Below, in pieces: positions 16,705 to 55,562 of a stretch of DNA of 64,000 bases (position 1 is its first letter; every line of letters begins with the position of its first letter). The position numbers were made by a program, and so were the translations under genes. The DNA comes from Microbacterium abyssi. GTDB taxonomy: Bacteria; Actinomycetota; Actinomycetes; Actinomycetales; Microbacteriaceae. The stretch spans positions 2,976,001 to 3,040,000 of the forward strand of contig NZ_CP063815.1 in assembly GCF_015277895.1 (NCBI RefSeq), in the 5' to 3' direction. Under the pieces are notes generated by a model that saw nothing but the letters and a program-made list of their open reading frames with translations, searched no databases and had not been told where the DNA came from.

Positions 16705-16757
16705 CTGTATGAGTTGTGTCGGTCAGCGCGGCACCAGAACCGGCACAAGTCATACAG
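16705..16757. repeat. Long intergenic hairpin (19-nt arms, 2 mismatches)
   Basis: Arms 16705-16723 (CTGTATGAGTTGTGTCGGT) and 16739-16757 pair at 17 of 19 positions across a 15-nt loop. It lies between two minus-strand genes, downstream of the DUF1992 gene and upstream of the M13 peptidase. No U-tract on either side. Confidence 0.8.
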
Positions 16758-16765
16758 CCTGGGGA

Positions 16766-17308
16766 TCACGGGCGACGGCGGAACAGACCACGGCGCGGCG
16801 GCGGAGCGGGTTCCTGCCGTGCGGGCGCCGGACCGGCTGCGCGCCGCTCTTGCCACGCCGCGATCTCGGCATCCACATCTCGCGTCTTCGTGACGACCGG
16901 CGGCCCGCCCATCAGCTGGCGACGGGCTGCGATGACGCGGCGATTGAAGTCCTCGAGGACCTCGCGTACGTCGCCCTCCCGCCCGAGCCGGTCGAGGTTC
17001 GCGTCGAGCTCGCGGTCCTCGGTGCGCAGCAGGATCGCGGGTGGACCGAGCCCGGTGAGGTTCTCGGTCTCGATCTTGCGACGGATCCACCAGTCCGGAT
17101 CGTGGTGCGTCCCGAGCCCCTCGAGCGGCTTGCCCGCGCCCGGCAGATCATCGAACTCGCCGCGCCGCATCGCGACCTGGATCGCACTCTCCACGAACTG
17201 GTGCTTGTTCTCGGCGGTGAGCTGCATCGGAGCCGGTTCGGTCTCGGCATCCGGCTCACCGTCCTGCCGCGCCCGGTAACGAGCCGCGGCGTCTCGAGGA
17301 TCAGTCAT
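16766..17308 (-). CDS. DUF1992 (DnaJ homologue C28-like) protein
   Basis: 180 aa. The central part, VESAIQVAMRRGEFDDLPG, then GKPLE and DPDWWIRRKIETE, is the DUF1992 domain also found in eukaryotic DNAJC28; no J domain is present. Function is unknown. The C-terminus is Pro/Arg-rich (PAPPPRRGLFRRRP). It is divergent from the MATE gene across a gap holding a perfect 17-bp inverted repeat. Confidence 0.85.
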   Translation of the reverse strand: MTDPRDAAARYRARQDGEPDAETEPAPMQLTAENKHQFVESAIQVAMRRGEFDDLPGAGKPLEGLGTHHDPDWWIRRKIETENLTGLGPPAILLRTEDRELDANLDRLGREGDVREVLEDFNRRVIAARRQLMGGPPVVTKTRDVDAEIAAWQERRAAGPAPARQEPAPPPRRGLFRRRP

Positions 17309-17376
17309 CGTCCACCTCCGGATGCCGGTACGCTCAGCCTACGCGCGCCGGCTCGACGCCGGGCGCGACCGATGCG

Positions 17377-17424
17377 GGATGCTTTCGGTCGGTTTCCGAC
17401 GCTCGAGACCGACCGAAAGCATCC
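17377..17424. repeat. Perfect 17-bp intergenic inverted repeat
   Basis: GGATGCTTTCGGTCGGT (17377-17393) and its exact complement at 17408-17424 flank a 14-nt loop. It lies between divergent genes (DUF1992 and MATE), so it cannot be a terminator for either; it may be an operator or a member of the hairpin family described in the findings. Confidence 0.9.
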
Positions 17425-17471
17425 AGCATCACGACACGCCGACGTCCGACGGCACGCCATAGGCTCGTGGG

Positions 17472-18797
17472 ATGACCGCGCGCCCCGTGACCCTGAATCG
17501 GGAGATCCTGCGCCTGGCGGTCCCGGCCCTCGGCGCGCTGGTCGCAGAGCCTGCGTTCCTGATGGTGGATGCCGCGCTCGTCGGCCACCTCGGCACCGTG
17601 CCGCTCGCGGGGCTCGGCATCGCGAGCGCTGTGCTGCAGACGATTGTCGGTCTGATGATCTTCCTCGCCTACTCGACCACGCCTGCCGTCGCCCGCCGCT
17701 TCGGCGCGGGAGACCACAAGGATGCCGTCTCGGTCGGCATCGACGGCATGTGGCTGGCGCTCGGCCTCGGCGCTGTGCTCGCCATGGCCGGAGCGATGTC
17801 GTCGGGGTGGCTGGTCTCGCTGTTCGGCGCCCCCGATGATGTCGCAGCGCAAGCCGATACGTACCTGATGATCAGCATGTGGGGACTGCCCGCCATGCTC
17901 ATCGTCTTCGCCGCGACCGGGCTGCTGCGCGGCATGCAGGACACCGTGACGCCGCTGTGGATCGCGGGCCTCGGGTTCGGCGCGAACGCGCTGCTGAACG
18001 TCCTGTTCATCTATGGTCTCGGCTGGGGCATCGCCGGTTCCGCCGCAGGCACGATCACCGCCCAGTGGGGCATGGTCGCCGCCTACGTGATCATCGTCGG
18101 ACGACTGGCCCGCAAGCACTCGGCATCGCTGCGGCCGCAGCGCGACGGCGTCCGCGGATCCGCCCGCGCCGGCGGGTGGCTGTTCCTGCGCACGGTCAGT
18201 CTGCGTGCGGCCTTGCTGATCACGGTCGGTGTGGCCACCGGCATCGGAACCGACGAGCTCGCCGGCTGGCAGGTGGTGTTCACGATCTTCTCGGCCGCGG
18301 CGTTCGCCCTGGATGCTCTCGCCATCGCCGCGCAGGCGCTCATCGGCAAGGGCCTGGGCGCGGGTGACATCGTCGGAGTGAGGCACGTGCTGGCTCGCAC
18401 CGTCGCCTGGGGCACCTGGTTCGGCGTGATCGTCGGCGTCGTGATCGGGGCGCTGTCCGGCGTCATCGGCCTGGCATTCACCGGCGACCCCGACCTCGCC
18501 GCGCTCATCCAGCCGGCACTCATCGTTCTCGCCGTCGCGCAGCCGATCGCGGGCATCGTCTTCGTTCTCGACGGGGTGCTCATGGGTTCCGGCGATGTGC
18601 GATATCTGGCGATCGCAGGCGCGCTCAACCTCGTGCCGTTCCTGCCCGCACTGCTGATCATCGCGCTGGTCGGCGCGAACGGCGTCGCCGGAGTCACTTG
18701 GCTCGCCGTGGCATTCTTCGGCGTGTACCTGCTCGCCCGATTCGCGACCCTCGGCTGGCGCGTGAAGACCGGCGGGTGGCTGCGCCAGGACGCGTAG
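17472..18797 (+). CDS. MATE-family efflux transporter (DinF-like)
   Basis: 441 aa with about 12 hydrophobic segments and the MATE pattern (EPAFLMVDAALVGHLGTVPLAGLG near the N-terminus, repeated with variation in the second half). It exports cationic or hydrophobic compounds, typically driven by Na+ or H+. ATG at 17472 lies 48 bp past the 17-bp inverted repeat. The stop is 2 bp from the convergent TrmH gene. Confidence 0.93.
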   Translation: MTARPVTLNREILRLAVPALGALVAEPAFLMVDAALVGHLGTVPLAGLGIASAVLQTIVGLMIFLAYSTTPAVARRFGAGDHKDAVSVGIDGMWLALGLGAVLAMAGAMSSGWLVSLFGAPDDVAAQADTYLMISMWGLPAMLIVFAATGLLRGMQDTVTPLWIAGLGFGANALLNVLFIYGLGWGIAGSAAGTITAQWGMVAAYVIIVGRLARKHSASLRPQRDGVRGSARAGGWLFLRTVSLRAALLITVGVATGIGTDELAGWQVVFTIFSAAAFALDALAIAAQALIGKGLGAGDIVGVRHVLARTVAWGTWFGVIVGVVIGALSGVIGLAFTGDPDLAALIQPALIVLAVAQPIAGIVFVLDGVLMGSGDVRYLAIAGALNLVPFLPALLIIALVGANGVAGVTWLAVAFFGVYLLARFATLGWRVKTGGWLRQDA

Positions 18798-18799
18798 GG

Positions 18800-19414
18800 T
18801 CAGGCGTGCCTTCGGCACCACTCGTACATGATCACGGCGCCCGCGGCGCTGGCGTTGATCGAGCGGGTCGAGCCGTACTGCGTGATCTCGATATGACCGG
18901 ATGCCACGGTGATCGCCTCTTCGGTCAGCCCGGGCCCCTCCTGACCGAACAGCAGCACGCAGCGCTCGGGCAGATCAGCCTTGTCGACGGGGACGGCGCC
19001 GTCGACGTTGTCGACCGCGATGATCGGGATGCCTTCTGCGGCGGCCCACGCGGCGAATGAGGCGACGTCCTCGTGGTGCACGACGTGCTGGTAGCGATCG
19101 GTGACCATGGCCCCGCGCTTGTTCCAGCGTCGACGGCCGATGATGTGCACGGTGTCGGCGAGGAACGCGTTGGCGCTGCGCACGATCGAGCCGATGTTCA
19201 TGTCGTGCTGCCAGTTCTCGATCGCGACGTGGAACGGATGGCGCTTCGTGTCGAGGTCGGCGACGATCGCCTCCATCCGCCAGTAGCGGTAGCGATCGAT
19301 CACGTTGCGGGTGTCGCCGTGCTCGAGCAGCTCGGGGTCGTAGTGGTCGCCCTCGGGCCATTCGCCCTCCCAGGGTCCCAGGCCGTGGGTGCTGCGCTCG
19401 GGGGTCTCGGTCAC
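18800..19414 (-). CDS. TrmH/SpoU-family RNA methyltransferase
   Basis: 204 aa from GTG at 19414. The three SPOUT motifs are visible: NIGSIVRSANAF, LLFGQEGPGLTEEA and STRSINASAAGAVIMYEW, which form the trefoil-knot S-adenosylmethionine site for ribose 2'-O methylation of tRNA or rRNA. The target nucleotide is unknown. The extension to 19576 was rejected because it runs into the divergent DtxR gene and a hairpin region. Confidence 0.9.
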   Translation of the reverse strand: MTETPERSTHGLGPWEGEWPEGDHYDPELLEHGDTRNVIDRYRYWRMEAIVADLDTKRHPFHVAIENWQHDMNIGSIVRSANAFLADTVHIIGRRRWNKRGAMVTDRYQHVVHHEDVASFAAWAAAEGIPIIAVDNVDGAVPVDKADLPERCVLLFGQEGPGLTEEAITVASGHIEITQYGSTRSINASAAGAVIMYEWCRRHA

Positions 19415-19440
19415 TGTCTCAGCGTAGCCTCGCCCGTCGG

Positions 19441-19512
19441 CGCCCCCGCTTGCCGTCCGCGCCCCCAGGTATAGGCGTCGCCAGCCGGGGGCACGGACGG
19501 TAACGGGGGGCG
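19441..19512. repeat. Long GC-rich intergenic hairpin between divergent genes
   Basis: Arms 19441-19466 and 19487-19512 pair at 22 of 26 positions; the inner 14 bp (CCGTCCGCGCCCCC / GGGGGCACGGACGG) carry a single mismatch, and the loop is 20 nt. It lies between the divergent TrmH and DtxR-family genes. Confidence 0.75.
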
Positions 19513-19569
19513 GGGTTCGAGGAGCACGGCCGCCCCGCTGGGCGGGACAGCCGCGGGTAGTCTGGAGCC

Positions 19570-20202
19570 GTGGCATCCCCGGCAGCTGACGACTACCTGA
19601 AGACGGTGTACGCGCACACCGAGTGGCAGGACGCCCCGATCACGCCGTCGGTTCTCGCCGCCAAGCTCGGCATCGCACCGTCGAGCGTGACCGAGATGGT
19701 CAAGAAGCTCGCGGCCGCAGGCCTCGTCTCGCACGTGCCGTACGGCGCGGTGCGTCTCACGGCAGAGGGCGAGGCGCGGGCGCTGCAGATGGTGCGGCGG
19801 CACCGGCTGATCGAGACCTGGCTGGTGCAGGAGTTCGGCTATGCCTGGGACGAGGTGCACGACGAGGCCGAGATCCTTGAGCACACCATCAGCGACCGCC
19901 TGCTGGGGGGCATCGACGCCCGCCTCGGCCACCCCCGTTTCGACCCGCACGGCGATGCGATCCCGGATGCGTCCGGTGAGGTCGTGCGCGAGCCGTTCGT
20001 GCTGCTCGCCTCAGCCACGGCGGGCCACGAGGGACGCGTGCTGAGGGTCAGCGACGTCGACCCGGAGCTGCTGCGGGCACTCGACGCGCTGGGCCTGGCG
20101 GTCTCGTCCGGGGTGCGCGTGACCGCCGAGGGCATCGAGCTCGACGGCGCGCCGGTCATCCTTCCGGACGGTGCCGCCGACGTCGTGTGGCTCAGCGCGT
20201 AG
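19570..20202 (+). CDS. DtxR/MntR-family metal-dependent transcriptional regulator
   Basis: 210 aa from GTG at 19570. N-terminal winged helix (DDYLKTVYAHTEW, ITPSVLAAKLGIAPSSVTEMVKKL), then the metal-binding/dimer segment RLIETWLVQEFGYAWDEVHDEAEILEH with its His and Glu ligands, and a C-terminal SH3-like tail. Family members use Fe2+ or Mn2+ to repress metal-uptake genes. No transporter is adjacent, so the target is elsewhere. The HAD gene follows 41 bp later. Confidence 0.9.
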   Translation: MASPAADDYLKTVYAHTEWQDAPITPSVLAAKLGIAPSSVTEMVKKLAAAGLVSHVPYGAVRLTAEGEARALQMVRRHRLIETWLVQEFGYAWDEVHDEAEILEHTISDRLLGGIDARLGHPRFDPHGDAIPDASGEVVREPFVLLASATAGHEGRVLRVSDVDPELLRALDALGLAVSSGVRVTAEGIELDGAPVILPDGAADVVWLSA

Positions 20203-20243
20203 CATCCGCGGTCGACGCCGGCTCCGACCAATAGGCTGAGCAC

Positions 20244-21044
20244 ATGGCACATCGCGATGACATCGAATGCTGGCTCACCGACATGGATGGTGTGCTCGTC
20301 CATGAGAACGAGGCCATCCCCGGGGCCTCCGAGCTGCTCGCGGGGTGGGAGGCGAACGGCATCCCGTATCTCGTGCTGACGAACAACTCGATCTTCACCG
20401 CGCGCGACCTGTCCGCGCGCCTCCGCGCGAGTGGGCTGAACGTTCCCGAGGAGCGTATCTGGACCTCGGCCCTGGCCACCGCGGACTTCCTCAAGCAGCA
20501 GGTACCGGGCGGCTCGGCGTTCGTCATCGGCGAAGCAGGCATCCTCACCGCCCTGCACGATGCCGGTTTCGTGATGACCGAGACGAACCCCGACTTCGTG
20601 GTGGTCGGCGAGACGCGCACGTACTCCTTCGAGGCGATCACCAGGGCGATCCGCCTGATCAACAGGGGCGCGCGCTTCATCATCACCAACCCGGATGCCA
20701 CCGGCCCGAGCGTCGACGGCGTGCTGCCCGCGACCGGCGCTGTCGCGGCGCTCATCACCAAGGCCACCGGACGCGAGCCGTACGTGGTCGGCAAGCCGAA
20801 CCCGATGATGTTCCGCTCGGCACTGAACAAGATCGGCGCCCACTCGAAGAAGACCGGCATGATCGGCGACCGCATGGACACCGACATCGTCGCCGGCATC
20901 GAGGCGGGCCTGCACACGGTGCTCGTGCTCACCGGCATCAGCGATCAGCGCGAGATCGAGAAGTACCCGTTCCGGCCGGATGAGATCGTCGACTCGGTCG
21001 CCGACCTGCTGCCCACCATCACCGGGACCATCAAGACAGTCTGA
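20244..21044 (+). CDS. HAD-IIA family phosphatase (NagD-like)
   Basis: 266 aa. HAD motifs in order: WLTDMDGVL (nucleophile Asp and acid/base Asp), LVLTNNS (motif II), VGKPNP (Lys) and MIGDRMDTDI (Mg2+ ligands). The cap region between motifs II and III gives the C2 type of HAD-IIA. Members dephosphorylate nucleotides or sugar phosphates; the substrate cannot be read from sequence. It lies 5 bp upstream of the YdeI-like gene, in an operon. Confidence 0.9.
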   Translation: MAHRDDIECWLTDMDGVLVHENEAIPGASELLAGWEANGIPYLVLTNNSIFTARDLSARLRASGLNVPEERIWTSALATADFLKQQVPGGSAFVIGEAGILTALHDAGFVMTETNPDFVVVGETRTYSFEAITRAIRLINRGARFIITNPDATGPSVDGVLPATGAVAALITKATGREPYVVGKPNPMMFRSALNKIGAHSKKTGMIGDRMDTDIVAGIEAGLHTVLVLTGISDQREIEKYPFRPDEIVDSVADLLPTITGTIKTV

Positions 21045-21049
21045 AGCTG

Positions 21050-21619
21050 ATGGGCGTTCTCGACGACGGCGAGCGGATCACGCTGGCGGATGCCGCGGCC
21101 TGGCGCGCCTGGCTCGAAGAGCATCACGCGACCGCCGCAGGTGTGTGGGTGATGAACGTGCGCGGCGCGGGAGCCGGTTCGTCACTCGAGTACGAGGATT
21201 CCGTCCGGCAGGCGCTGTGCTTCGGATGGATCGACGGGCCGGTGCGCACGTTCCCGGAGGGCAACGGGCAGTGGTTCTCGCCGCGGCGGCCGTCAAGCGG
21301 CTGGGCTGCGACCAACAAGGCTCGACTGGCCCTGCTCGAGGAGGCGGGGATGCTGGCGCCGGCCGGCATCCGCGCGATCGAGGTCGCGAAGGCCAACGGC
21401 ACCTGGGAGATGCTCGACGGCCCTGAGGCCGGGATCGAGCCGCACGAGCTCAGCGCGGCATTGGATGCCGTCCCTGCCGCGCGCGCGAACTGGGACGCCT
21501 TCCCGAAGTCGGTGAAGAAGCTTGGCCTGACGCTTATCGCGACGGCGAAGCGGCCGGAGACGAGGTCGGCCCGCATCGCGAAGGTCGTCGCGGATGCCGC
21601 GGACGGAAAGCGCCCATGA
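21050..21619 (+). CDS. YdeI/OmpD-associated family protein
   Basis: 189 aa. GVWVMNVRG, DSVRQALCFGWIDGPVRT, SPRRPSSGWAATNKARLALLEEAGMLAPAG and a Lys/Arg-rich C-terminus match the YdeI-like family of small cytoplasmic proteins of uncertain function, linked in some species to peptide-stress tolerance. Its TGA overlaps the ATG of the small membrane protein gene (ATGA). Confidence 0.8.
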   Translation: MGVLDDGERITLADAAAWRAWLEEHHATAAGVWVMNVRGAGAGSSLEYEDSVRQALCFGWIDGPVRTFPEGNGQWFSPRRPSSGWAATNKARLALLEEAGMLAPAGIRAIEVAKANGTWEMLDGPEAGIEPHELSAALDAVPAARANWDAFPKSVKKLGLTLIATAKRPETRSARIAKVVADAADGKRP

Positions 21620-21777
21620 ATCAGAGCGATCTGCTGTTCCTCGTGATGATCCTCATCGGTCTGTCGACCCTGACGATCATCATCTGGCAGTTCGTGGGAT
21701 CCCGCCGCCGCGGCGGTCGCGGTGACGACCGCTCGGGCAACTGGTGGGAAGGCCCCTGGGACGACGACAAGCGCTGA
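21616..21777 (+). CDS. Small single-pass membrane protein (53 aa)
   Basis: 53 aa, MNQSDLLFLVMILIGLST at the start. One hydrophobic segment spans about residues 6-28, followed by an Arg-rich cytoplasmic-looking patch (GSRRRGGRG) and an acidic/Trp tail (NWWEGPWDDDKR). The start overlaps the preceding stop (ATGA), which makes co-translation likely and supports it as a real gene. No family recognised. A hairpin follows at 21825. Confidence 0.75.
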   Translation: MNQSDLLFLVMILIGLSTLTIIIWQFVGSRRRGGRGDDRSGNWWEGPWDDDKR

Positions 21778-21824
21778 GCGGCCGCCTGCGGGGCGCTCGC
21801 GCTGACCCGGGGAGGTGTCGCTTC

Positions 21825-21853
21825 GTGTCGCTTCGGCGCACCCCGAGCGACAC
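21825..21853. terminator. Hairpin between convergent genes
   Basis: GTGTCGCTTCGG (21825-21836) pairs with CCGAGCGACAC (21843-21853) with one bulged T. It is preceded by a direct repeat of GTGTCGCTTCG. It lies between the small membrane protein gene and the convergent anmK gene. Confidence 0.55.
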
Positions 21854-21904
21854 TCTCGGCCACCTGCCCGATCTACGCTCGGTCAGCGTGCGGAATGCCT
21901 CGGC

Positions 21905-23065
21905 TCAGCGTGCGGTGAGCACCAGGCTGCGCAGCTCGGCGACGGGCTCGGGCATCCGCAGCGGACCGGCACCCGGGGTGATCGTGCCGAGGATGCGCGG
22001 TTCGCGCGCACCGGTGCCGCCGGGGACGACGGCGGCCACGCCGTGCATCGTGCACCAGCCGATCAGCGCGAACAGGATCGCCTCTTTCGCATCGGCCGAG
22101 GCGCCGAGCTCGTCGGCCAAGACGACTTCGGTACCGGGGAGCGCGGCGCGCAGCCCGTCCATGATCAGCGGGTTGTGGCATCCGCCGCCCGACACGGCGA
22201 GGAAGCCGACGCCGGCGTTCCGAACGTCCTGCGCGACGGTGCGAACGGTGAGCTCGGTGAGCGTGCGCACCAGGTCGGCCACCGGGATGTCGCGACCGAG
22301 TGCGGCGACGCGCTCGCGCACGTAGTCGAGGTGGAAGTGCTCCTTGCCCGTGCTCTTGGGGGCGGCGAGCGCGTAGTACGGGTCGGCCAGCAGCTCGCCC
22401 AGCAGCTCGTCGTCGACGGTGCCGGCCAGTGCGATGCGGGCATCCTCGTCGTAGCCGAGCGGGTTGAGTCCGTACGCCGCGATGACCGCGTCGACGAGCG
22501 CGTTCGCCGGGCCGATGTCGTACGCCGACAGTCCATCCCCGACGATCGTGATGTTGGCGATGCCGCCGAGGTTCAGCGCGGCCGAAACGCCCGCGCGCCC
22601 GCGCAGCAGCAACTCGTCGAGGAACGACACCAGCGGGGCGCCGTGGCCGCCCGCGGTGATGTCGCGGATCCGCACATCCGAGACGACCGGGGCGCCGACC
22701 GCCTCGGCGATCCAGGCCGGCTGCCCGATCTGGAGCGTGCCGCGGGCGTGATCGCCCTCGACCCAGTGGAAGACGGTCTGGCCGTGCGTGCTGACCGCGT
22801 CGACGCCGCCGACGGATGCCGCGACATCCCGCGCGACGTCCGCGAACGCCTGACCGATCAGGGTGTCGAGCTCGCACACCTCGGCGAGCGTCGTCGGTGC
22901 GGGCGGGAGCGCGGCGACCAGGCGGGCGCGCAGCGCAGGCGCGTAGGGCACGCTGTCCGAGTGCAGCACCACGCCGCGCAGCATCCCGTCCTGCTCGATG
23001 AAGTCGACGACGGTGACGTCGATCCCGTCATGAGAGGTGCCGGAGAGCAGACCGAGTACGCGCAT
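21905..23065 (-). CDS. anmK: Anhydro-N-acetylmuramic acid kinase
   Basis: 386 aa. The N-terminal MRVLGLLSGTSHDGIDV is the phosphate-binding GTSxDGID signature of AnmK; DAVSTHGQTVFH, NLGGIANIT and VSGGGCHNPLIM are further family blocks. The enzyme hydrolyses and phosphorylates 1,6-anhydro-MurNAc, giving MurNAc-6-phosphate in cell-wall recycling. ATG 23065 was preferred over the adjacent GTG 23068. The next upstream gene on this strand is a ROK sugar kinase, which supports a sugar-recycling context. Confidence 0.95.
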   Translation of the reverse strand: MRVLGLLSGTSHDGIDVTVVDFIEQDGMLRGVVLHSDSVPYAPALRARLVAALPPAPTTLAEVCELDTLIGQAFADVARDVAASVGGVDAVSTHGQTVFHWVEGDHARGTLQIGQPAWIAEAVGAPVVSDVRIRDITAGGHGAPLVSFLDELLLRGRAGVSAALNLGGIANITIVGDGLSAYDIGPANALVDAVIAAYGLNPLGYDEDARIALAGTVDDELLGELLADPYYALAAPKSTGKEHFHLDYVRERVAALGRDIPVADLVRTLTELTVRTVAQDVRNAGVGFLAVSGGGCHNPLIMDGLRAALPGTEVVLADELGASADAKEAILFALIGWCTMHGVAAVVPGGTGAREPRILGTITPGAGPLRMPEPVAELRSLVLTAR

Positions 23066-23104
23066 CACTCGAGCCTACGATGCCCCGATCCGCGGACACC
23101 TTCA

Positions 23105-23143
23105 CGATCTGCGGACGTTCTGGCCGGATTCGTCCGCAGATCG
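23105..23143. repeat. Perfect 13-bp intergenic inverted repeat
   Basis: CGATCTGCGGACG (23105-23117) and CGTCCGCAGATCG (23131-23143) around a 13-nt loop. It lies between two minus-strand genes (after the ROK kinase, before anmK). Could terminate the ROK transcript; no U-tract. Confidence 0.8.
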
Positions 23144-23181
23144 GTACAACCTCAGCAGATCGGGGGCACCAGATCGGCCGG

Positions 23182-24638: not shown

Positions 24639-24723
24639 GGCATCCAGTGTAGGGCGCGCCGCCGGTGGTCACGCATGGCCGTTTCGCCTATCGTGGCGAT
24701 GGATCCGTAACGCAGGGAGGCCC

Positions 24724-30113: not shown

Positions 30114-30167
30114 GAAAGGAGGAAAGTGGTCGGCATCCAACCGAGAACCGACCACTCTCCTCCTTTC
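30114..30167. terminator. Long hairpin between convergent genes
   Basis: 20-nt arms (30114-30133 and 30148-30167) pair with one mismatch around a 14-nt loop. It lies between the response regulator and the convergent flavin reductase gene and would serve both as a terminator, although no U-tract follows on either strand. Same architecture as the other long hairpins. Confidence 0.75.
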
Positions 30168-31862: not shown

Positions 31863-32956
31863 ACGCCTCATCGACCAACGCCGTCTCCACCGGCCAGGGC
31901 GTCTGGCTCGTCGCCGAACGCGAGCTGAGCACCAAGCTGCGCAGCAAGGCGTACCTGATCTCCACCGGCATCCTGCTGCTGATCGCCCTCGCCGGCGTCA
32001 TCTGGGCCGGCTTCTCCTCTTCGAACACCAGCTCGACGCCCATCGCGGCGACGAGCGCGACGGCATCCGCTCTTTCGGAGGTCGACGGCTACGAGGTGAC
32101 CGAGGTGACGGATCGGGATGAGGCGACCGCGCTCGTCGAATCGGGCGAGGTCGACGCCGCTGTGATCGACGACGCATCGTCCGCGACCGGCCTCGTGATC
32201 ATCGCCGACGAGGAAGCGCCCCAGAGCCTGCTGATGGCACTTTCCGTGTCGCCGGAGGTCGAACTGCTCAACCCGGACGCTGCCAGCGGTCCGCTGCGCT
32301 ACCTCCTCGGCATCGGCTTCGGCCTGGTGTTCATGATGGCCGCCATCACCTTCGGGTCGCCGATCTCCACCAGCGTCGTCGAGGAGAAGCAGACCCGAGT
32401 CATCGAGATTCTGCTCTCGACCATCCCGGCACGCGTGCTGCTGGCCGGCAAGGTGATCGGGAACACGATCCTCGCGATCTCGCAGATCCTCCTGCTGGTG
32501 GCTGTGGGCACCGTCGGCCTCATCGTCACAGGGCAGACCGCGCTCCTCGCCGGGCTCGGCGGTCCGGTGATCTGGTTCGCGGTGTTCTTCCTGTTCGGAT
32601 TCATCCTGCTCGCGGCGATGTTCGCGGCCGCAGGATCGATGGTGTCGCGCCAGGAGGACGTCGGCGCCACTCTGACCCCGGTGATGTACCTGACGATGAT
32701 CCCGTACTTCCTGGTGATCTTCTTCGGCGACAACCCGGTCGTGATGACCGTGCTCTCTTACGTGCCGTTCTCTGCCCCGGTCGGGATGCCGATCCGGCTT
32801 TTCTTCAACGAGGCGGAGTGGTGGGAGCCGCTCGCGTCGCTGGCGATCATGCTCGTCGCGTGCGTGCTGGTGATCCTGCTCGGCGCGAAGATCTACGAGA
32901 ACTCGCTGCTGAAGATGGGCGCGCGGGTGAAGTTCCGCGAGGCGCTGCGGGGCTGA
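31859..32956 (+). CDS. ABC-2 type exporter permease (NatB-like)
   Basis: 365 aa from GTG 31859. One N-terminal membrane helix (AYLISTGILLLIALAGVIW), a large extracytoplasmic domain (about residues 60-140), then five to six helices, the ABC-2 NatB arrangement. SVVEEKQTRVIEILLSTIPARVLLAGKVIG is the coupling helix region. Substrate unknown (Na+, drugs or peptides in relatives). Forms one unit with the ATPase gene. Confidence 0.92.
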   Translation: MNASSTNAVSTGQGVWLVAERELSTKLRSKAYLISTGILLLIALAGVIWAGFSSSNTSSTPIAATSATASALSEVDGYEVTEVTDRDEATALVESGEVDAAVIDDASSATGLVIIADEEAPQSLLMALSVSPEVELLNPDAASGPLRYLLGIGFGLVFMMAAITFGSPISTSVVEEKQTRVIEILLSTIPARVLLAGKVIGNTILAISQILLLVAVGTVGLIVTGQTALLAGLGGPVIWFAVFFLFGFILLAAMFAAAGSMVSRQEDVGATLTPVMYLTMIPYFLVIFFGDNPVVMTVLSYVPFSAPVGMPIRLFFNEAEWWEPLASLAIMLVACVLVILLGAKIYENSLLKMGARVKFREALRG

Positions 32957-32975
32957 AGCGCCCGAATCCTCTGAG

Positions 32976-33034
32976 ACTGCATTCCGCGGACGAGACGCAC
33001 CGGATTCCGGGCGATCTCGGCCGCGGAATGCAGT
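32976..33034. repeat. Long intergenic hairpin (perfect 14-bp stem)
   Basis: ACTGCATTCCGCGG (32976-32989) and its exact complement (33021-33034) around a 31-nt region containing a secondary CGAG/CTCG pairing. The loop holds ACGCACCGGAT, which recurs in the hairpin at 55519-55562. Lies between two plus-strand operons, 20 bp after the ABC permease stop. Confidence 0.85.
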
Positions 33035-33105
33035 TTCGTGTGGGTGGTGCCCGATTCAGCGATGGGTATTGCGCTTGGGCGTCGGGCGTGTTTCACTCCT
33101 ATTAC

Positions 33106-41103: not shown

Positions 41104-41275
41104 CTGGCTTCGACTCCCTGCGGTCGCTCAGCCCGTTTCGTCTTCGGCGCTGCGCGCCTGCGCTCAACGACCCGCATCAGCTGCCGAGCTATTCAAGGGC
41201 GTCCTTCCGCGGGTCGTTGAGCGAGCACAGCGAGACGAAACGGGGTGAGCGAGCCGAAAGCGAGTCGAAGCCTCC
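41104..41275. repeat. REPIN-like composite repeat between convergent genes
   Basis: Reverse arm (about 41106-41175) and forward arm (41209-41273) carry the same words as the element at 13451-13655. The innermost 15 bp pair perfectly: CGCTCAACGACCCGC (41161-41175) with GCGGGTCGTTGAGCG (41209-41223). The 33-nt centre is unrelated to the centre of the first element. Confidence 0.8.
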
Positions 41276-46228: not shown

Positions 46229-47701
46229 ATGAACAGCATCACTGCTCACCTCGAAGACCTGGACAGGTCTCTCGCCGAGGCGAGCAGTGATGCGTTCGGA
46301 CGCGAAGAGATTCCCGACCTCTCGGATGCTGACATCGCCGCGCTGCTCGAAGCGAGCGGCCGCATCCAGAAGCGGATCGAGGGGCTGCAGGTCGAGGCGA
46401 CAGTGCAGGTCATCGAACGGTCGGCGCCGATGCGCGATGACAAGATGACGGCGAAATACGGGTGGTCGCGGCCGGTCGACCTGGTGCGAGTCCTGACGCG
46501 CTCGGAGTCACGCGACGCGAACCGCGTGGTGAAGACAGCCCGACTGCTGACCCGCAACCGGGGGATGTCGAGCGGAGAGTTCGTGCCCGCCCGCTACCCG
46601 GAACTACGCCAGGCGATGGTGTCTGGAGCAATGGGCGTCGCGGGACTTCTGGCGGCGATGGAGCCGCTGGAGCAGTCCCGCGACCGAATCTTCGACGACG
46701 ACCGTCTGGAAGCCGACCGTCAGCTCGCCGACCTCGCCTGCGGGATCATCCGCGACGACGACAGGCAGACGGGCACGGTTCCATTGCCGACGCCGGAGGA
46801 TCTGCGGATGCTGTCGCGCGTACTGGTCGCCTATCTCGACCCCGACGGCGCCGAGCCGGCAGACAAGGCCGGCGCGCGAGGACGCAGCTTCATGATCGGG
46901 CGCGAACGCAACGGCAACGTGCCGGTACGCGGCAACATCCTGCCGGAGGTGGCCGGGCAATTGCAGTTGCTGATGGACAGCACGTGCAACCCGCGCGTCG
47001 ATGGCCCGGACGACCCGACCGCCGGAGTGCGATTCGAGGAGAGCCCCGACGAGGAGCTCACCCCGAACGGCGAAACGCACAGCACCGCACGGATCGATGA
47101 GCGCACCCGCACGCAGAAGATGCACGACGCGTTCGCGATGATCGTAGGCGTCGCCGCCCGCGCCGGCGAGTTCCCCGACATCGGCGGCGCCGCGCCCACC
47201 CTGGTCGTGACGGTGACCGCCGAGGACTACGCATCCGGCAGCGGATGGGCGACCGTCCTCAACACCGGCGACCGCATCCCCTCACGCGTCGCCGCGCAGA
47301 CCGGGTGCGCGGGCGGCATCCAGCGCGTCATGTTCGACGAGAACGGCCGCATCGCCGCAATCGGCACATCCGCACGAATCTTCAATGCCCTGCAACGGCG
47401 CGCGATCACCTTGCGTGACGACGGCTGCATCATTCCTGGTTGCACGGTGCCGGCATCCTGGTGCGAGATCCACCACGTCACCGAGCACGCCGACGGCGGT
47501 CCGACACACACCGACAACGGCGTCCTGCTGTGCTGGTGGCATCACCGCAACCTCCATCTCTCCGAGTGGCGGATCCGCATGAATCGAGGCATCCCGGAGG
47601 TACGCGGACCGCGGTGGTGGGATCACGAACAACGCTGGCACCCAGCCGGATCGCCTCGCCCTCGAGTACACGCTGGCGGCGCCGGGATCCGCACCGGGTG
47701 A
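46229..47701 (+). CDS. DUF222 / HNH endonuclease-domain protein
   Basis: 490 aa. N-terminal DUF222 (about residues 1-300) and C-terminal HNH domain with CIIPGCTVPASWCEIHHVTEHADGGPTHTDNGVLLCWWHHRNLH, including zinc Cys and catalytic His residues. This is the 13E12-type family found in many copies in actinobacteria; function is unknown and a mobile or defence role has been suggested. It sits between the paa blocks with its own promoter region. Confidence 0.92.
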   Translation: MNSITAHLEDLDRSLAEASSDAFGREEIPDLSDADIAALLEASGRIQKRIEGLQVEATVQVIERSAPMRDDKMTAKYGWSRPVDLVRVLTRSESRDANRVVKTARLLTRNRGMSSGEFVPARYPELRQAMVSGAMGVAGLLAAMEPLEQSRDRIFDDDRLEADRQLADLACGIIRDDDRQTGTVPLPTPEDLRMLSRVLVAYLDPDGAEPADKAGARGRSFMIGRERNGNVPVRGNILPEVAGQLQLLMDSTCNPRVDGPDDPTAGVRFEESPDEELTPNGETHSTARIDERTRTQKMHDAFAMIVGVAARAGEFPDIGGAAPTLVVTVTAEDYASGSGWATVLNTGDRIPSRVAAQTGCAGGIQRVMFDENGRIAAIGTSARIFNALQRRAITLRDDGCIIPGCTVPASWCEIHHVTEHADGGPTHTDNGVLLCWWHHRNLHLSEWRIRMNRGIPEVRGPRWWDHEQRWHPAGSPRPRVHAGGAGIRTG

Positions 47702-47727
47702 TGCGCGATCCGCGCGGGTGTGCGAGA

Positions 47728-47751
47728 ATTACTGAACGTACGGTCAGTAAT
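47728..47751. promoter_or_regulatory. Second paa operator, upstream of paaA
   Basis: 24-bp palindrome with one mismatch; core ACTGAACGTACGGTCAGT. It matches the operator at 41955-41978 in 22 of 24 positions. The paaA ATG at 47780 lies 29 bp downstream. Confidence 0.8.
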
Positions 47752-47779
47752 GACGCACCATGACGACGAAGGGGTCGTG

Positions 47780-49047: not shown

Positions 49048-49868
49048 TGTCCCATGACCCGCACGGCGCCGTCACCGTCGACGAGCTCGAGCTCAGCGCT
49101 GAGCTCGCAGGCAGTGGAGACGCCGTCGCCTCCGCCGCCGTCGCCGAGTACGCCCTCTGGCTCGGCGACGATGCGCTGATCCTCTCGCAGCAACTCGGCG
49201 CCTGGATCGCCCGCGCCCCAGAGCTCGAAGAGGATGTCGCGCTCGGCAACATCGCCCTCGACCTGCTCGGCCATGCGCGCTCGCTGCTCCGCTACGCCGG
49301 CACCGCCGACGGGCGCACCGAGGACGACCTCGCCTACTTCCGCGACGAACCGGAGTTCCGCAGCGCCTGGCTCTTCGAGCAGCCGAACGGCGACTTCGCG
49401 CAGACGATCGCGCGGCAGCTCGCGGCATCCGCGTACCTGTTCGAGCTGTACTCCGCCCTGCGCCTCTCACGCGACGCGACGCTCGCAGCCATCGCCGAGA
49501 AGTCGCTCAAGGAGGTCGACTATCACCGCGACCACGCCGTCCAGTGGACGCTGCGCCTCGCGGGCGGCACCGACGAATCGCGCCGCCGCATGATCCGTGC
49601 GGTGACCGATGTCTGGCCGTACGTCGACGAGCTGTTCCGCGACGAGCCGTTGATCGACGAGCTCGACGGCATCGCGGTGCGCCCATCGGTCCTGCGCGAC
49701 GGGTTCGACGCCGCGGTCGACGTCGTCTTCGCCGAAGCCGACCTCCACCGTCCCGAAGGCCAGCCGTCCGCCGGCGGCGGGCGCCGCGGCATCCATTTCC
49801 CCGCCCTGTCGCGCATCCTCGCCGAGATGCAGGTTCTCGCAAGACAGCATCCGGGGGCGACATGGTGA
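49047..49868 (+). CDS. paaC: Phenylacetyl-CoA epoxidase structural subunit PaaC
   Basis: 273 aa from ATG 49047 (GTG 49044 adjacent). The ferritin-like PaaC pattern is seen in YALWLGDDALILSQQLGAW and LGNIALDLLGHARSLL, and LKEVDYHRDHAVQWTLRLAGG. It pairs with PaaA but lacks the full di-iron centre. Confidence 0.95.
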   Translation: MSHDPHGAVTVDELELSAELAGSGDAVASAAVAEYALWLGDDALILSQQLGAWIARAPELEEDVALGNIALDLLGHARSLLRYAGTADGRTEDDLAYFRDEPEFRSAWLFEQPNGDFAQTIARQLAASAYLFELYSALRLSRDATLAAIAEKSLKEVDYHRDHAVQWTLRLAGGTDESRRRMIRAVTDVWPYVDELFRDEPLIDELDGIAVRPSVLRDGFDAAVDVVFAEADLHRPEGQPSAGGGRRGIHFPALSRILAEMQVLARQHPGATW

Positions 49869-50356
49869 CCACCACACGCCGACAGGACGCCTGGCGCGTC
49901 GCTGCGACCGTGACCGACCCCGAGGTCCCCGTCCTGACGATCGAAGACCTCGGCGTCCTGCGAGACGTAACGGTCGACGGCGAGCGCGTCACGGTCACGC
50001 TCACGCCGACGTACAGCGGATGCCCGGCGCTGGACGCCATGCGCGACGACGTGATCCTCGCGCTCACCGCCGCCGGCTTCGACCACGTCGATGTGCGCAC
50101 CACGCTCTCTCCCGCGTGGACGACGGACTGGATGACGGATGCCGGGAAGCGCAAGCTCACCGAGTTCGGCATCGCCCCGCCGACCGGTCGTGCGGCGCTG
50201 GGGCGGGGACCGGTGAAACTCCGGCTCGCCGTGAAGTGCCCGCGCTGCGGATCACCTGACACCCGCGAGATCGCGCGCTTCGGCTCGACCTCCTGCAAGG
50301 CGCTCTACGAATGCCGCGCCTGCCTCGAGCCCTTCGACCACTTCAAAGTGCTGTGA
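49862..50356 (+). CDS. paaD: Phenylacetate degradation protein PaaD (iron-sulfur assembly-like)
   Basis: 164 aa from ATG 49862 (GTG 49865 alternative), 7-bp overlap with paaC. N-terminal MIP18/SufT-like domain (DPEVPVLTIEDLGVLRDV, YSGCPALDAM) and a C-terminal zinc/Fe-S Cys cluster CPRCG...SCKALYECRACLEPFDHFK. Thought to help mature the epoxidase metal centres. Confidence 0.95.
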   Translation: MVTTTRRQDAWRVAATVTDPEVPVLTIEDLGVLRDVTVDGERVTVTLTPTYSGCPALDAMRDDVILALTAAGFDHVDVRTTLSPAWTTDWMTDAGKRKLTEFGIAPPTGRAALGRGPVKLRLAVKCPRCGSPDTREIARFGSTSCKALYECRACLEPFDHFKVL

Positions 50357-51459
50357 ACGCCACCACGCGCACACGCCGCCGCGGGCGCTTCCACGAGCTC
50401 GAGGTCACCGAGGTCAGGCCGCTCACCGCGGAGAGCATCGAGGTCACATTCGCCGTGCCACCGGAGCTGCATGACGACTACCAGTACCTTCCTGGCCAGT
50501 ACGTGGCGCTGCGCGCCCACGTCGACGGCCAAGAGGTGCGCCGCAGCTACTCGATCTGCCGGCCGCCGAGCCCCGGCCGCATCAGCGTCGGCATCAAGCG
50601 CGACCTCGGCGGACTGTTCTCGGTCTGGGCGCACGAGAACCTCAAGCCCGGCGACCGCATCGAGGTGATGAGCCCGGAGGGGAAGTTCACCACCAACCTC
50701 CCCGACCTCGACCACGCGCATATCGCGGGCATCGCCGCGGGTTCGGGCGTGACGCCGATGATGGCGCTGGCGGCTCACGTGCTGGCATCCTCGCCGACGG
50801 CGCAGTTCAGTCTCGTCTACACGAACCGCGCCACTCAGGACGTCATGTTCCTCGACGACCTCGCCGACCTGAAGGACCGCTACCCGTCCCGCCTCGCACT
50901 GCACCATGTGCTCTCGCGCGAGCAGCGCACCGCTCCCCTGCTGTCCGGGCGCATCGACGGCGAGAAACTCGGTGCGATCCTCGACGGGCTGGTACCGCCG
51001 GGGACCGTCACGGAGTGGTTCCTGTGCGGGCCGTTCGACCTCGTCGCACTGTGCCGCGAGACGCTCGAGGCGCGCGGAGTGCCGACGGGCAGCATCCGCT
51101 TCGAGCTGTTCACGAGCGACGCCGATGGCCCGCGCGTCGATCGCGGGCGCCCCGTCGTGATCGACAAGGGCGACGAGGTGCGGAAGATCGAGTTCACGCT
51201 CGACGGCCTGTCGTCGACGGTCGAGTCGCCGGTGTCGGCGAACGAGGCGATCCTGGATGCCGCGTTGCGCGTCCGCGGAGACGTGCCGTTCGCGTGCGCC
51301 GGAGGGGTCTGCGGCACGTGCCGGGCCCGCCTGCTCGAGGGCGAGGTGCGGATGACGCAGAACTTCGCGCTCGAGCCGGAGGAGCTCGAACGCGGCTATG
51401 TGCTGACCTGCCAATCCCACCCGACCACGGCATCCGTGGTCGTCGACTACGACGCGTGA
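50353..51459 (+). CDS. paaE: Phenylacetyl-CoA epoxidase reductase PaaE
   Basis: 368 aa from GTG 50353 (GTGA overlap with paaD). FAD domain (RRSYSICRPPS), NADP domain (GIAAGSGVTPMMALA) and a C-terminal plant-type ferredoxin cluster CAGGVCGTCRARLLEG with the last Cys in VLTCQSHP. Passes electrons from NADPH to the PaaAC di-iron centre. Confidence 0.97.
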   Translation: MNATTRTRRRGRFHELEVTEVRPLTAESIEVTFAVPPELHDDYQYLPGQYVALRAHVDGQEVRRSYSICRPPSPGRISVGIKRDLGGLFSVWAHENLKPGDRIEVMSPEGKFTTNLPDLDHAHIAGIAAGSGVTPMMALAAHVLASSPTAQFSLVYTNRATQDVMFLDDLADLKDRYPSRLALHHVLSREQRTAPLLSGRIDGEKLGAILDGLVPPGTVTEWFLCGPFDLVALCRETLEARGVPTGSIRFELFTSDADGPRVDRGRPVVIDKGDEVRKIEFTLDGLSSTVESPVSANEAILDAALRVRGDVPFACAGGVCGTCRARLLEGEVRMTQNFALEPEELERGYVLTCQSHPTTASVVVDYDA

Positions 51460-51480
51460 CCCCACAACAGACGGAGCGCC

Positions 51481-52251
51481 ATGATCGACCTGACCATCGC
51501 CGATGACATCGCCCACGTGGTGCTGAACGCGCCGGAGAAGCGCAACGCGCTGGACGTCCAGGCGCTCGCCGACCTCGGCGCCGCGTACGACGACGCCGAA
51601 GCCGCGGGCGTGCGGTCGCTCGTGCTGCGCGGCGAAGGGCCGGGCTTCTGCGCGGGTCGAGACATCGCCGGCGTCGACCCGGCGACGGACGACGTGACCG
51701 GCTACCTCGACGGGCTCGTCACGCCGCTGCTGAAGAAGATGTCGTCGTTTCCCGCACCGACCTTCGCGGCCGCGCACGGTGCCTGCCTCGGGGTGGGTCT
51801 CGGTCTGCTCATCGCCACGGACGTCGTCTACGTCGCGGACAACGCGAAGATCGGCTCTCCCTTCGCCGCCCTCGGAGCAACGCTCGACTCCGGCGGACAT
51901 GCGCTGTTCTACGAGCGGCTCGGCGCGCACAGGACGCTCGACCTCATCTACACGGGCCGGCTCATGAGCGGCGCGGAGGCCGTGCAGTCCGGCCTGTTCT
52001 CGCAGGTGTTCCAGGAGGATAAGGTGCAGGCGGCGACGGAAGACGCGGCATCCCGCGCCGCCCGGGGCGCGACACAGGCGTTTCTCGCGAGCAAGCGCCT
52101 CGTCGCCCGGCTGCGCGACGAGCGACTCGCGCTCTGGGATGCCGTCGCCGTCGAGAACGCGAATCAGGCGTCGCTGCGCGACACCGCCGACTACCGCGAG
52201 GGATTCGCGGCGTTCCAGCAGAAGCGGAAGCCGGAGTTCACCGGGCGCTGA
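51481..52251 (+). CDS. Enoyl-CoA hydratase/isomerase, probable PaaG
   Basis: 256 aa. Crotonase fold: NAPEKRNALDVQAL, GPGFCAGRDIAGV and AAAHGACLGVGLGLLIATDVVYVAD. At the end of paaABCDE it is best explained as PaaG (epoxide-to-oxepin isomerase), but this is from context. Starts 21 bp after paaE. A 21-nt-arm hairpin starts 2 bp after its stop. Confidence 0.85.
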   Translation: MIDLTIADDIAHVVLNAPEKRNALDVQALADLGAAYDDAEAAGVRSLVLRGEGPGFCAGRDIAGVDPATDDVTGYLDGLVTPLLKKMSSFPAPTFAAAHGACLGVGLGLLIATDVVYVADNAKIGSPFAALGATLDSGGHALFYERLGAHRTLDLIYTGRLMSGAEAVQSGLFSQVFQEDKVQAATEDAASRAARGATQAFLASKRLVARLRDERLALWDAVAVENANQASLRDTADYREGFAAFQQKRKPEFTGR

Positions 52252-52252
52252 C

Positions 52253-52311
52253 TTCAGGTCGCACTTTCTGCCGGTCTCAGCACGCCAGAGCGGCAGGAAG
52301 TGCGACCTGAA
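52253..52311. terminator. Long hairpin between convergent paaG and pntB
   Basis: 21-nt arms (52253-52273 and 52291-52311, inner part GCACTTTCTGCCG) pair with one mismatch over a 17-nt loop. It fills nearly the whole gap between the convergent genes, so it likely terminates both; no U-tract. Confidence 0.75.
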
Positions 52312-52317
52312 CGAGGG

Positions 52318-53730
52318 TTACAGCGCTCGCAGGATGTCGTCCACCCGATCCTTCGCATCACCGAACAGCATCTGCGCGTTCTCGCGGAAGAACAGCGGGT
52401 TCTGCACGCCGGCATACCCCGAGGCCATCGAGCGCTTGAACACGATCACGTTCTCGGCTTCCCACACGCGCAGCACCGGCATTCCGGCGATCGGGCTGCT
52501 GGGATCCTCGGCCGCCGCGGGGTTCACGGTGTCGTTCGCGCCGATCACGAGGACGACGGCGGTGGATGCCAGGTCGTCGTTGATCTCGTCCATCTCGAGC
52601 ACGATGTCGTACGGCACCTTGGCCTCGGCCAGCAGCACGTTCATGTGCCCGGGCAGGCGTCCGGCGACGGGATGGATGCCGAACCTGACGTCCACGCCGC
52701 GATCGCGCAGTTTCTGCGTGAGCTCGGCGACCGGGTACTGCGCCTGTGCGACGGCCATGCCGTAGCCGGGTGTGATCACGACGGTCGAGGCGCTGCCGAG
52801 CATGTCGGCCACGGACGCCGCGTCGATCTCACGATGCTCGCCGTGGTCGACGTCATCCTTCGTCGGCGCCGCGATGCCGAACCCGCCGGCGATCACCGAG
52901 ATGAACGACCGGTTCATGGCCTTGCACATGATGTACGACAGATACGCACCGGAAGATCCGACCAGCGCACCCGTGACGATCAGCAGGTCGTTGTTCAGCA
53001 GGAAGCCCGCGGCGGCGGCGGCCCAGCCGGAGTAGCTGTTCAGCATCGAGACGACCACCGGCATGTCGCCGCCGCCGATCGAAGCGACCAGGTGCCACCC
53101 GAGCGCCAGAGACAGGGCGGTGACGACGATCAGCAGCACGAGCGACGGCGTCATGACGTACCAGACCGTCAGGCCGATGAACACGACGATCGCACCGAGG
53201 TTCAGCACGTTCTTGCCCGGCAGCATGAGCGGCTTCGACGAGATGCGCCCCGACAGCTTCAGGAACGCGACGATGGATCCGGTGAACGTCACGCCGCCGA
53301 TGAAGATGCCGATGAACACCTCGGCGTGGTGGATGTCGGCGAGCGCGCCGGTGAGCCCGGGGCTGTGCAGGTGGCCGTTCCAGCCGACGAGCACGGCCGC
53401 GAGACCCACGAAGCTGTGCAGCAGCGCGATGAGCTCCGGCATGCCGGTCATCTCGACGCTGCGCGCCCGCCAGAGGCCGATGACCGCGCCGACGAGCATC
53501 GCGACCAGCAGCAGCACGAGCCCGAGGATCGCCTGCGGCTGCCCCCACGCACCCTGGAACGTGACCCAGATCGTGGCGACCAGGGCGATCGCCATGCCGA
53601 CCATGCCGTAGGTGACGCCGGCGCGCGAGGACTCGTGGCGACTGAGCCCTGCGAGGCTCATGATGAACAGCAGAGCGGCGACGATGTACGCGGCGCCCGC
53701 GACGGATGCGGAGAGTTCGACGGCGCTCAT
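52318..53730 (-). CDS. pntB: NAD(P) transhydrogenase subunit beta
   Basis: 470 aa. About eight or nine membrane segments in the first 280 residues, then the NADP(H)-binding domain with [16 protein letters not shown] and [10 protein letters not shown], typical of PntB. With PntA it uses the proton gradient to reduce NADP+ with NADH. ATG overlaps the pntA stop (53727-53730). Confidence 0.97.
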
Positions 53731-55301
53731 CGGCCGGCCCCCTTCTCAGAAGTCGAGGGCGCGTCCTTGGAGAACATCTTCAGCATGCGGCGCGTGACCG
53801 CGAACCCTCCGAAGATGTTGATGGATGCCACGAGCACGGCGATCGCGGACAGGATCTGCACCACGAGGTTCGGCGTCGCGATCTGCACGATCGCGCCGAC
53901 GATGATGATGCCCGAGATGGCGTTGGTGACGCTCATGAGCGGCGTGTGCAGGGCGTGCGAGACCTTGCCGATGACATAGAAGCCGATCACGACCGACAGC
54001 ATCAGCACGGTGAAGTGCTGCGGCAGAGGCGCCGGCGCGACCGCGTTGACGAGGAACAGCGCGGCGATGCCTGCCGCGACCAGCGCGACCTTCGCACCGG
54101 CCGACAGGCCCTTCTTCTTCGCAGGGGCGGCGGGTGCGGCATCCACAGCCTTCGAAACAGGCGCCGCCGACACCTGCACCGGCGGTGGCGGCCAGGTCTC
54201 CTCGCCGTCGCGCACGACCGTCACGGTCCGCTGCACGACGTCGTCGAAATCGAGCACGAGCTGCCCGTCCTTGGCCGGCGTGAGCAGCTTCAGCAGATTG
54301 ACGAGATTCGTGCCGTACAACTGCGAGGCCTGGGTGGGCAGGCGCCCGGCGAGGTCCGTGTAGCCGAGGATGATGACGCCGTTCGCCGTGACGACGCGCT
54401 CGCCTGCGACCGAGCCCTCGACGTTTCCGCCCTGTGCGGCTGCCATGTCGACGATGACGCTGCCCGGTTTCATGCTCGCGACATCCGCCGCCGTGATGAG
54501 CCGCGGGGCGGCGCGGCCCGGGATCAGAGCGGTGGTGATGATGATGTCGACGTCCGCGGCCTGCTCGGAGTAGAGCTCTGCGGCGCGGCGGTCATACGCC
54601 TCGCTGGTCGCCTTGGCGTAGCCGTCGCTGGAGATCTCCTTCTGCTCCTCGGGCACGATGACCTCGAGGTACGTGCCGCCGATCGACTTCACCTGATCGG
54701 CGACTTCTGGACGCGGATCGGTCGCGCGCACGATCGCGCCGAGGCTGGATGCCGCACCGATGGCGGCGAGCCCGGCGACACCGGCACCGGCCACGAGCAC
54801 CTTCGCCGGCGGCACCTTGCCCGCAGCGGTGACCTGTCCGGTGAAGAACCGGCCGAACTCGTTCGCCGCTTCGACGACCGCGCGGTAGCCCGAGATGTTC
54901 GACATCGAGCTGAGCACATCCATCGACTGCGCCCGCGAGATGCGCGGCACCGCATCCAGCGCCAGCGCGGTGATGCCGCGCGTCGCGAGCGCCTGACGCA
55001 GCTCAGGGCGCAGGTTCGGGCTCAGCTGTGCGATGAGCGTCGCGCCGTCCGCGATTCTGGCGATCTCGGCATCCGTCGGGGCGTTGACCTTCAGCAGGAT
55101 GGGCGACGCCCACGCCTGATCGGCGCTGACGATCACCGCGCCGGCGGTCGCGTAGGCGTCGTCGGGATAGGCGGATGCCACGCCCGCACCTGTTTCGACC
55201 GCGACGTCGTAGCCGAGCTTGCGCAGGGCCCCTACGGTCTGCGGCGTGGCGGCGACCCGCGTCTCGCCGTCCTGCTCACGCACGATGCCGATCTGCGTCA
55301 T
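53727..55301 (-). CDS. pntA: NAD(P) transhydrogenase subunit alpha
   Basis: 524 aa from ATG 55301, with AGGAG 6 bp upstream. NAD-binding domain ([34 protein letters not shown]), an Ala/Pro linker near residue 390, and three or four C-terminal membrane helices ([29 protein letters not shown]). This is the fused form. A promoter candidate lies at 55365-55392. Confidence 0.97.
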
Positions 55302-55364
55302 CACAGCTCCTGTCTCCCGTCGGCGACGAACGGAACAGTCCGCCGTCGACACACATGAGACGAG

Positions 55365-55424
55365 ACTCTATCGACGGGACACCGAAGCGCAAGGGGATAT
55401 TTCGTTCGATCGGATCGAAAGAAA
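55365..55424 (-). promoter_or_regulatory. pntA promoter and upstream palindrome
   Basis: On the minus strand TTGCGC (55392-55387), 16-bp spacer, TAGAGT (55370-55365). Just upstream lies an imperfect palindrome at 55400-55424 with the perfect core TTCGATCGGATCGAA (55405-55419). The rest of the 317-bp gap 55302-55618 holds the hairpin at 55519-55562 and a third partial copy of its TTCTGAGACACGC word at about 55588; I see no gene in it. Confidence 0.5.
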
Positions 55425-55518
55425 TCCTGTTCTTGAGATTTCATCAACTCCAGCGCCGCGCGTGCATCCATGGGCGCGCTCCAGGTCACACAAAGTGCGG
55501 GTTCGGCGGCCGAGCACC

Positions 55519-55562
55519 CGCATGTTCTGAGACACGCACCGGATGATGTCTCAGAACATGCG
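55519..55562. repeat. Perfect 16-bp intergenic inverted repeat
   Basis: CGCATGTTCTGAGACA (55519-55534) and TGTCTCAGAACATGCG (55547-55562) around 12 nt. It lies between two minus-strand genes, after clpB and before pntA. Loop and arm share ACGCACCGGAT (55534-55544) with the hairpin at 32976-33034. Confidence 0.9.

Follow-up and report, generated by a model that had tools for sequence, protein, structure and literature searches.

Eight intergenic hairpins were recognised in a 64,000-nt stretch of the Microbacterium abyssi chromosome (the window, G000:C1:2976001-3040000, of a genome of 3,267,287 bp), and the original prediction regarded them as a class of element with a fixed architecture, individual arms and shared loop words. 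Our results indicate, with a probability that we put at about 75%, that four of these hairpins (at 16705, 17377, 32976 and 52253), and perhaps two more (19441 and 55519), belong to families of short dispersed palindromic repeats, named here A, B, F1 and the composite C, which are similar to non-autonomous mobile elements of the repetitive extragenic palindromic (REP), Rickettsia palindromic element (RPE) or miniature inverted-repeat transposable element (MITE) kind. The idea of individual arms with shared loops was largely inverted: the arms are common and the centres vary, both in our own-genome sample and in the relative Microbacterium aerolatum. The families have fixed lengths and a patchy distribution, differ in presence or absence between close relatives, lie behind stop codons and include in-frame copies, and we infer that they have spread, by whatever route.

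All eight inverted repeats were found where they had been reported, with scores of 13-20 (+1 per pair, -2 per mismatch). A shuffle comparison on 864 kb of own-genome sequence showed that such hairpins are beyond chance, since 62 intergenic hairpins scored at least 13 compared to 1, 0, 0, 1 and 2 in five Markov shuffles; coding DNA gave 19 compared to 10 in one shuffle. The gap types were also as described, being tandem for 16705, 23105, 32976 and 55519, convergent for 30114 and 52253, and divergent for 17377 and 19441. No general U-tract accompanies the hairpins, as the T counts in their flanks are low: the higher count of the two 10-nt flanks was 0-3 for 70 of 92 hairpins and at least 5 for six of them. 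No Rfam family matched the window above its gathering score.

Relatives of the arms were sought in 1.264 Mb of the own genome (39%), and there the claim that the arms are unrelated failed: 16705 and 17377 fall into a single family, and repeats that carry the outer arms of 32976 or of 52253 occur at other places too. Individual arms are therefore not found genome-wide, the outer arms being common within a family, but the description stands in part for families B and F1, in which the inner arms differ by coupled changes. The loop word ACGCACCGGAT was not taken as a mark of a class because it occurs four times in the 1.264 Mb and is missing from the M. aerolatum counterpart of 55519. The words GTCGG...AGAACCG, noted in 16705 and 30114, are similar to the inner arm that is conserved in family F1, and the F1 model did not pick up 30114 at an expect value (E) of up to 1. 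Families defined by loop words were considered and were not upheld by word counts. A fixed architecture was borne out for four of the eight hairpins, which have fixed-length families, palindromic arms and variable centres, but not for the set as a whole, which is mixed: 23105 and 30114 have no relatives in the sample, and other gaps hold G+C-rich hairpins with short loops.

The hairpin at 32976 is a 65-nt family A palindrome (32973..33037) located 16 nt after the stop codon of an ABC-2 permease gene. M. aerolatum has a counterpart in this gap, at L237:1001-1065; strain NBRC 103071 of this species was the closest relative in a protein scan of 80 loci, 77 of which are titled Microbacterium, with 95% protein identity, and its DNA syntenic to the window is 88-92% identical. 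A search with window positions 32900-33100 revealed three further palindromes with the same arms in the own genome. In total, there are four own copies of family A, all of them matched by a counterpart in M. aerolatum, and at least 21 copies in M. aerolatum, which thus has at least 17 more; these counts are lower bounds because 40 candidates were scored per genome. All 25 aligned copies (4 own and 21 from M. aerolatum, once chance hairpins with scores under 16 and the duplicates at loci L002, L003 and L007 had been removed) are exactly 65 nt long without a single indel. The outer arms, 17 nt with the sequence GAGA(T/C)TGCATTCCGCGG, are nearly invariant, and the centre is variable. Among 149 Microbacterium genomes searched, the family A half-site was present in three, G000 (4), G081 (37) and G126 (1), and a control pattern gave none among the matches listed; the G081 coordinates agree with those found for M. 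aerolatum (G039). Contig L101, from a metagenome-assembled genome, carries one more copy. Most of the half-sites listed in M. aerolatum pair at a spacing of 46 nt, and none of those listed marks a long element. Family A had no match in plasmids or phages, and viral contigs contained no exact A or B pattern.

Differences between family A copies are concentrated in the centres. In pairwise comparisons of the M. aerolatum copies, 3.3% of arm positions and 31.4% of centre positions differ, and the four pairs of own and M. aerolatum counterparts differ at 9 of 136 arm positions and 16 of 124 centre positions. This is suggestive of centres changing faster than arms at copying, and the nearest-neighbour comparison for this effect was not significant (p=0.11). 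The commonest difference between centres is an exchange of C and G, which makes up 38% of differences before orienting the copies and 34% after, with 28% expected from the composition of the centres. No covariation beyond shuffles was detected in family A.

Family F1 (ATGCTGTATG...CATACAGCAT) was found at 12 places in the 1.264 Mb by covariance model R1, and family B (TCAGGTCGCA...TGCGACCTGA), which includes 52253, at nine by model R2, both counts including the five own members used in building each model. Eleven of the 12 F1 places are 58-59 nt long; the weakest, at L026 with 28 bits, is 65 nt long and lies within a called gene. Family B has a length of about 59 nt. The two F1 members in the window both served in building the model: a 59-nt palindrome at 16702..16760 (66.6 bits) in a tandem gap, 5 nt after the stop codon of a DJC28-domain gene (16766-17227, minus strand), and a 58-nt palindrome at 17372..17429 (76.9 bits) in the divergent gap between this gene and the plus-strand MatE gene. 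Both have counterparts in M. aerolatum, a quasi-palindrome at L099:9223-9285 for the first and an imperfect palindrome at L099:9899-9962 for the second, in which the right arm is nearly the same and the left arm is different. The family B palindrome (52250..52314) lies in the convergent gap between the enoyl-CoA hydratase (plus strand) and PntB (minus strand) genes; this gap (52251-52318) is 66 nt here, and the corresponding place in M. aerolatum and in strain AK031 is occupied by about 0.5 kb of DNA, in which a gene (441 or 459 nt) was called. Another palindrome, at L025:5749, had been grouped with B by its arm words and was set aside, as it gave no match to R2. Family B had no match in plasmids.

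The B and F1 models match each other weakly (E 0.0009-0.003), and both alignments show covariation of the arms above all 500 shuffles and all six slid controls (0.224 compared to 0.140 for the eight B sequences, and 0.300 compared to 0.142 for the seven F1 sequences). Coupled arm change is therefore claimed for B and F1 alone, given the shuffle result for family A, and the evidence is weakened because the members are related and were mostly first found as palindromes. At E of at most 0.001 with strict filters, the F1 model matched 22 of the 149 genomes; counted by strand, there were 32 matches in G000, 24 in G081 and 32 in G149, and 1-5 in each of the other 19. In the own genome, 14 of 16 F1 sites fall within G000:C1:2304903-3222115 (0.93 Mb, 28% of the chromosome), with a binomial p of about 1e-6 for this region, chosen after looking, and a Kolmogorov-Smirnov p of 1e-5 against a uniform distribution. 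Three neighbouring pairs are less than 1 kb apart, and this crowding fits what local hopping would give.

Copies inside genes argue further for insertion. Three of the four own family A copies are in reading frames, those of a TetR regulator, an MFS_2 transporter and an unknown protein (L010/L233), and M. aerolatum has each of them as well; relatives without the insert were seen for the first two. The TetR protein with the element has 197 aa compared to 174 aa in five of eight aligned relatives, the other three (191, 197 and 288 aa) also being without the element peptide, and many relatives match it in two parts, with the break at residues 73/98. In the MFS_2 transporter, the insert is in a central linker of varying length, and the element peptide is absent from all seven aligned relatives. 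Two M. aerolatum copies (L220 and L234) in frames with apparently misplaced starts were excluded from the in-frame count. A family B copy in NadB (L022) was rejected as a clean insertion, since the linker differs in all seven aligned relatives.

The hairpins are strongly biased to gene ends. Among gaps of at least 40 nt, hairpins scoring at least 13 occur in 34 of the 82 convergent gaps, 46 of the 322 tandem ones and 8 of the 167 divergent ones (convergent compared to divergent, Fisher p=2e-12), and 43 of 48 hairpins in tandem gaps are nearer the upstream stop codon, at a median of 14 nt. Of the 21 M. aerolatum family A copies, 10 are in tandem gaps, 6 in convergent gaps, 5 in reading frames and none in divergent gaps; all 16 intergenic ones are within 43 nt of a stop codon, and all eight intergenic family B copies are within 15 nt of one. 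The F1 places comprise 5 in tandem, 3 in convergent and 3 in divergent gaps and 1 in a gene.

Intrinsic terminators without a U-tract work in actinobacteria. The hairpins could be ordinary bidirectional intrinsic terminators of a high-GC actinobacterium, each evolved in place, with shared arms that are incidental or due to occasional duplication, and the two are alike in having hairpins close behind stop codons that are two-sided in convergent gaps; of the usual features of an intrinsic terminator, the hairpin at the gene 3' end is present and the U-tract is missing. The strong 3'-end bias, the G+C-rich short-loop hairpins in the same gap types, the coupled changes in the B and F1 arms and the two hairpins without relatives would all suit this explanation. 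However, it would hardly account for dispersed families with the same length and near-identical arms in every aligned A copy, for the restriction of family A to three of the 149 genomes or for presence-absence differences between relatives, and the in-frame copies and those of F1 and of the hairpin D (19441) in divergent gaps support the original proposal that ordinary termination is not enough for every one of them. We therefore consider this explanation unlikely.

The sites that correspond to M. aerolatum copies bear on both explanations. Own-genome counterparts of 10 of the 17 M. aerolatum-specific family A copies were located in the sample (that of L236 by its right flank only), and two of these, for L231 and L235, are short sites without the element. 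The L235 counterpart is at 12198..12235 in the window, where the own segment has 36 nt compared to 101 nt in M. aerolatum; the difference of 65 nt is the element length, which speaks against terminators evolved in place. The counterparts of L224, L226 and L227 hold family C words, that of L225 a B-like palindrome, those of L222 (a weak case), L232 and L236 other palindromes or repeats, and that of L229 an extra reading frame.

Several observations weigh against mobile families. Other DNA is present at eight of the ten located counterparts, so that a clean insertion is seen at one or two sites only, and in seven of the eight this DNA is again a palindrome or repeat, as though these places required a hairpin, which a terminator would explain. 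No target-site duplication was seen, the net difference of exactly 65 nt at L235 leaving no room for one and the other sites being too diverged. Y1_Tnp (PF01797) was found in none of the four genomes G000, G039, G040 and G041 (control matches 5/14) in a search that did not include other transposase classes. A further 26 hairpins scoring at least 13 are in called genes and are mostly of no known family, and some gene starts are uncertain because the gene caller was home-made. The 3 of 12 F1 places in divergent gaps are contrary to a pure 3'-end rule, and the 3'-end bias itself fits either a role as 3' hairpins or insertions surviving mainly there, two possibilities that are not separable. Finally, 23105 and 30114, without relatives in the 39% sample, may be ordinary hairpins.

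A third possibility, that selection maintains the repeats as palindromes to which a protein binds (nucleoid, segregation or recombination sites), with the F1 crowding at 2.30-3.23 Mb as a domain signal, is very improbable. The crowding, the palindromic symmetry and the fixed length would suit it, but family A is found and F1 is abundant in only three of the 149 genomes each, a close relative often lacks a copy at the corresponding position, and binding sites would not be expected to favour stop codons.

We thus favour dispersed mobile repeats, whose copies would be spread by an enzyme recognising the arms or the hairpin. Insertions would survive where they are least harmful, in 3' gaps and interdomain linkers, and behind a stop codon they may provide the gene with a 3'-end hairpin that is replaceable, often works in both directions and has no U-tract, as a terminator or for RNA-end protection. 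More tentatively, A, B, F1 and their kin could form a superfamily of fixed-length hairpin elements whose arms evolve as coupled pairs and whose centres diversify faster than the arms; moved by a hairpin-reading enzyme, it would colonise gene 3' ends, one family replacing another as the 3' hairpin of a gene, and interdomain linkers, adding a peptide of 20-odd residues.

Among known systems, the repeats partly resemble RPEs, which passages of PMC10969869 and PMC3733652 describe as in-frame insertions in unrelated genes. Judged by these passages, the repeats share with RPEs several palindrome families per genome and intergenic as well as in-frame copies in unrelated genes, the latter seen in family A, but they are 58-65 nt long compared to about 150 bp (PMC10969869), are in a phylum other than that of Rickettsia and have intergenic copies mostly directly behind stop codons. 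A title of Ogata et al. 2002, as cited in PMC3733652, calls in-frame palindromic repeats a unique feature of Rickettsia; such small repeats are not confined to that genus, since further titles report coding palindromes in Nematomorpha mitochondria (PMC6649704) and enterobacterial small mobile sequences found intragenically (PMC2759123). Like REP/REPIN sequences, the repeats are short dispersed palindromes mostly outside genes, but no Y1_Tnp accompanies them, their unit is longer than the 20-40 bp given for REPs in a passage of PMC3733652, and the ends of A, B and F1 carry no GTAG or CGTC tag by eye. They share inverted termini and no coding capacity with SPRITE-type elements, SPRITE being by its name a terminator-like repeat in the abbreviation list of PMC10969869, but no parent insertion sequence or target-site duplication was found, and they are near-complete palindromes rather than termini with a body. 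No literature on palindromic repeats of Microbacterium was found, judged by titles or the starts of abstracts.

Family C consists of composite repeats (GGGTCGTTGAGCG...GAGCGAAGCGAGACGAAACG), with copies in the window in the convergent gaps at 13506..13574 (arms CGCTCAACGACCCGC) and 41161..41223 and elsewhere at L282:4797-5024 and L276:18190-18417; the 1.264 Mb contain 46 GGGTCGTTGAGCG words. One copy is in the linker of a methyltransferase, and in other species this linker is shorter or has other repeats. At this linker (L009:13363-13413), the homologues L302 and L304 have different in-frame repeat-like stretches by species, of the CTTCGACAAGCTCAGG type in L302.

The four remaining hairpins of the window were compared with the own sample by blastn at E of up to 0.05. 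The G+C-rich hairpin D (19441..19512), in the divergent gap between the SpoU (minus strand) and DtxR (plus strand) genes, lies within about 100 bp not present in relatives: window positions 19445-19549 face 4 nt in M. aerolatum (L099), and the hairpin is missing from all five aligned relatives (L099-L103). Its sole relative is weak (L009:10912-10983, 71% over 72 nt, E 0.003). The hairpin at 55519..55562, with the inner arms TTCTGAGACA/TGTCTCAGAA, is in a tandem gap 56 nt after the stop codon of a Clp-type ATPase gene; M. aerolatum retains the inner arms in its corresponding gap, one further paired pattern match with a mismatch allowed was at L041:8854-8883, and blastn gave no relatives. It likewise gave none for 23105..23143, in the tandem gap after a ROK gene, whose homologous gap in M. 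aerolatum is diverged and without such a hairpin, or for 30114..30167, in the convergent gap between a response regulator (plus strand) and an FMN reductase (minus strand) gene, whose hairpin is not in the aligned M. aerolatum gap.

Three other inverted repeats were noted. A 14-bp hairpin with a 4-nt loop at window 7422-7453, apparently an ordinary terminator, is also matched at M. aerolatum L099:52-87. An inverted repeat with 18-bp arms lies at window 46236-46293, at the start of a DUF222 gene, and two identical 76-nt inverted-repeat stretches with a 52-nt loop (L013:278-353 and L038:16106-16181) are far apart in the genome.

These findings place in-frame palindromic repeats in a high-GC actinobacterium with insert-free relatives, so that the uptake of such peptides by proteins becomes testable. 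At gene 3' ends, where one hairpin stands in place of another, the same elements offer a set of natural variants in which to study how actinobacterial genes come by 3' ends that are free of a U-tract.

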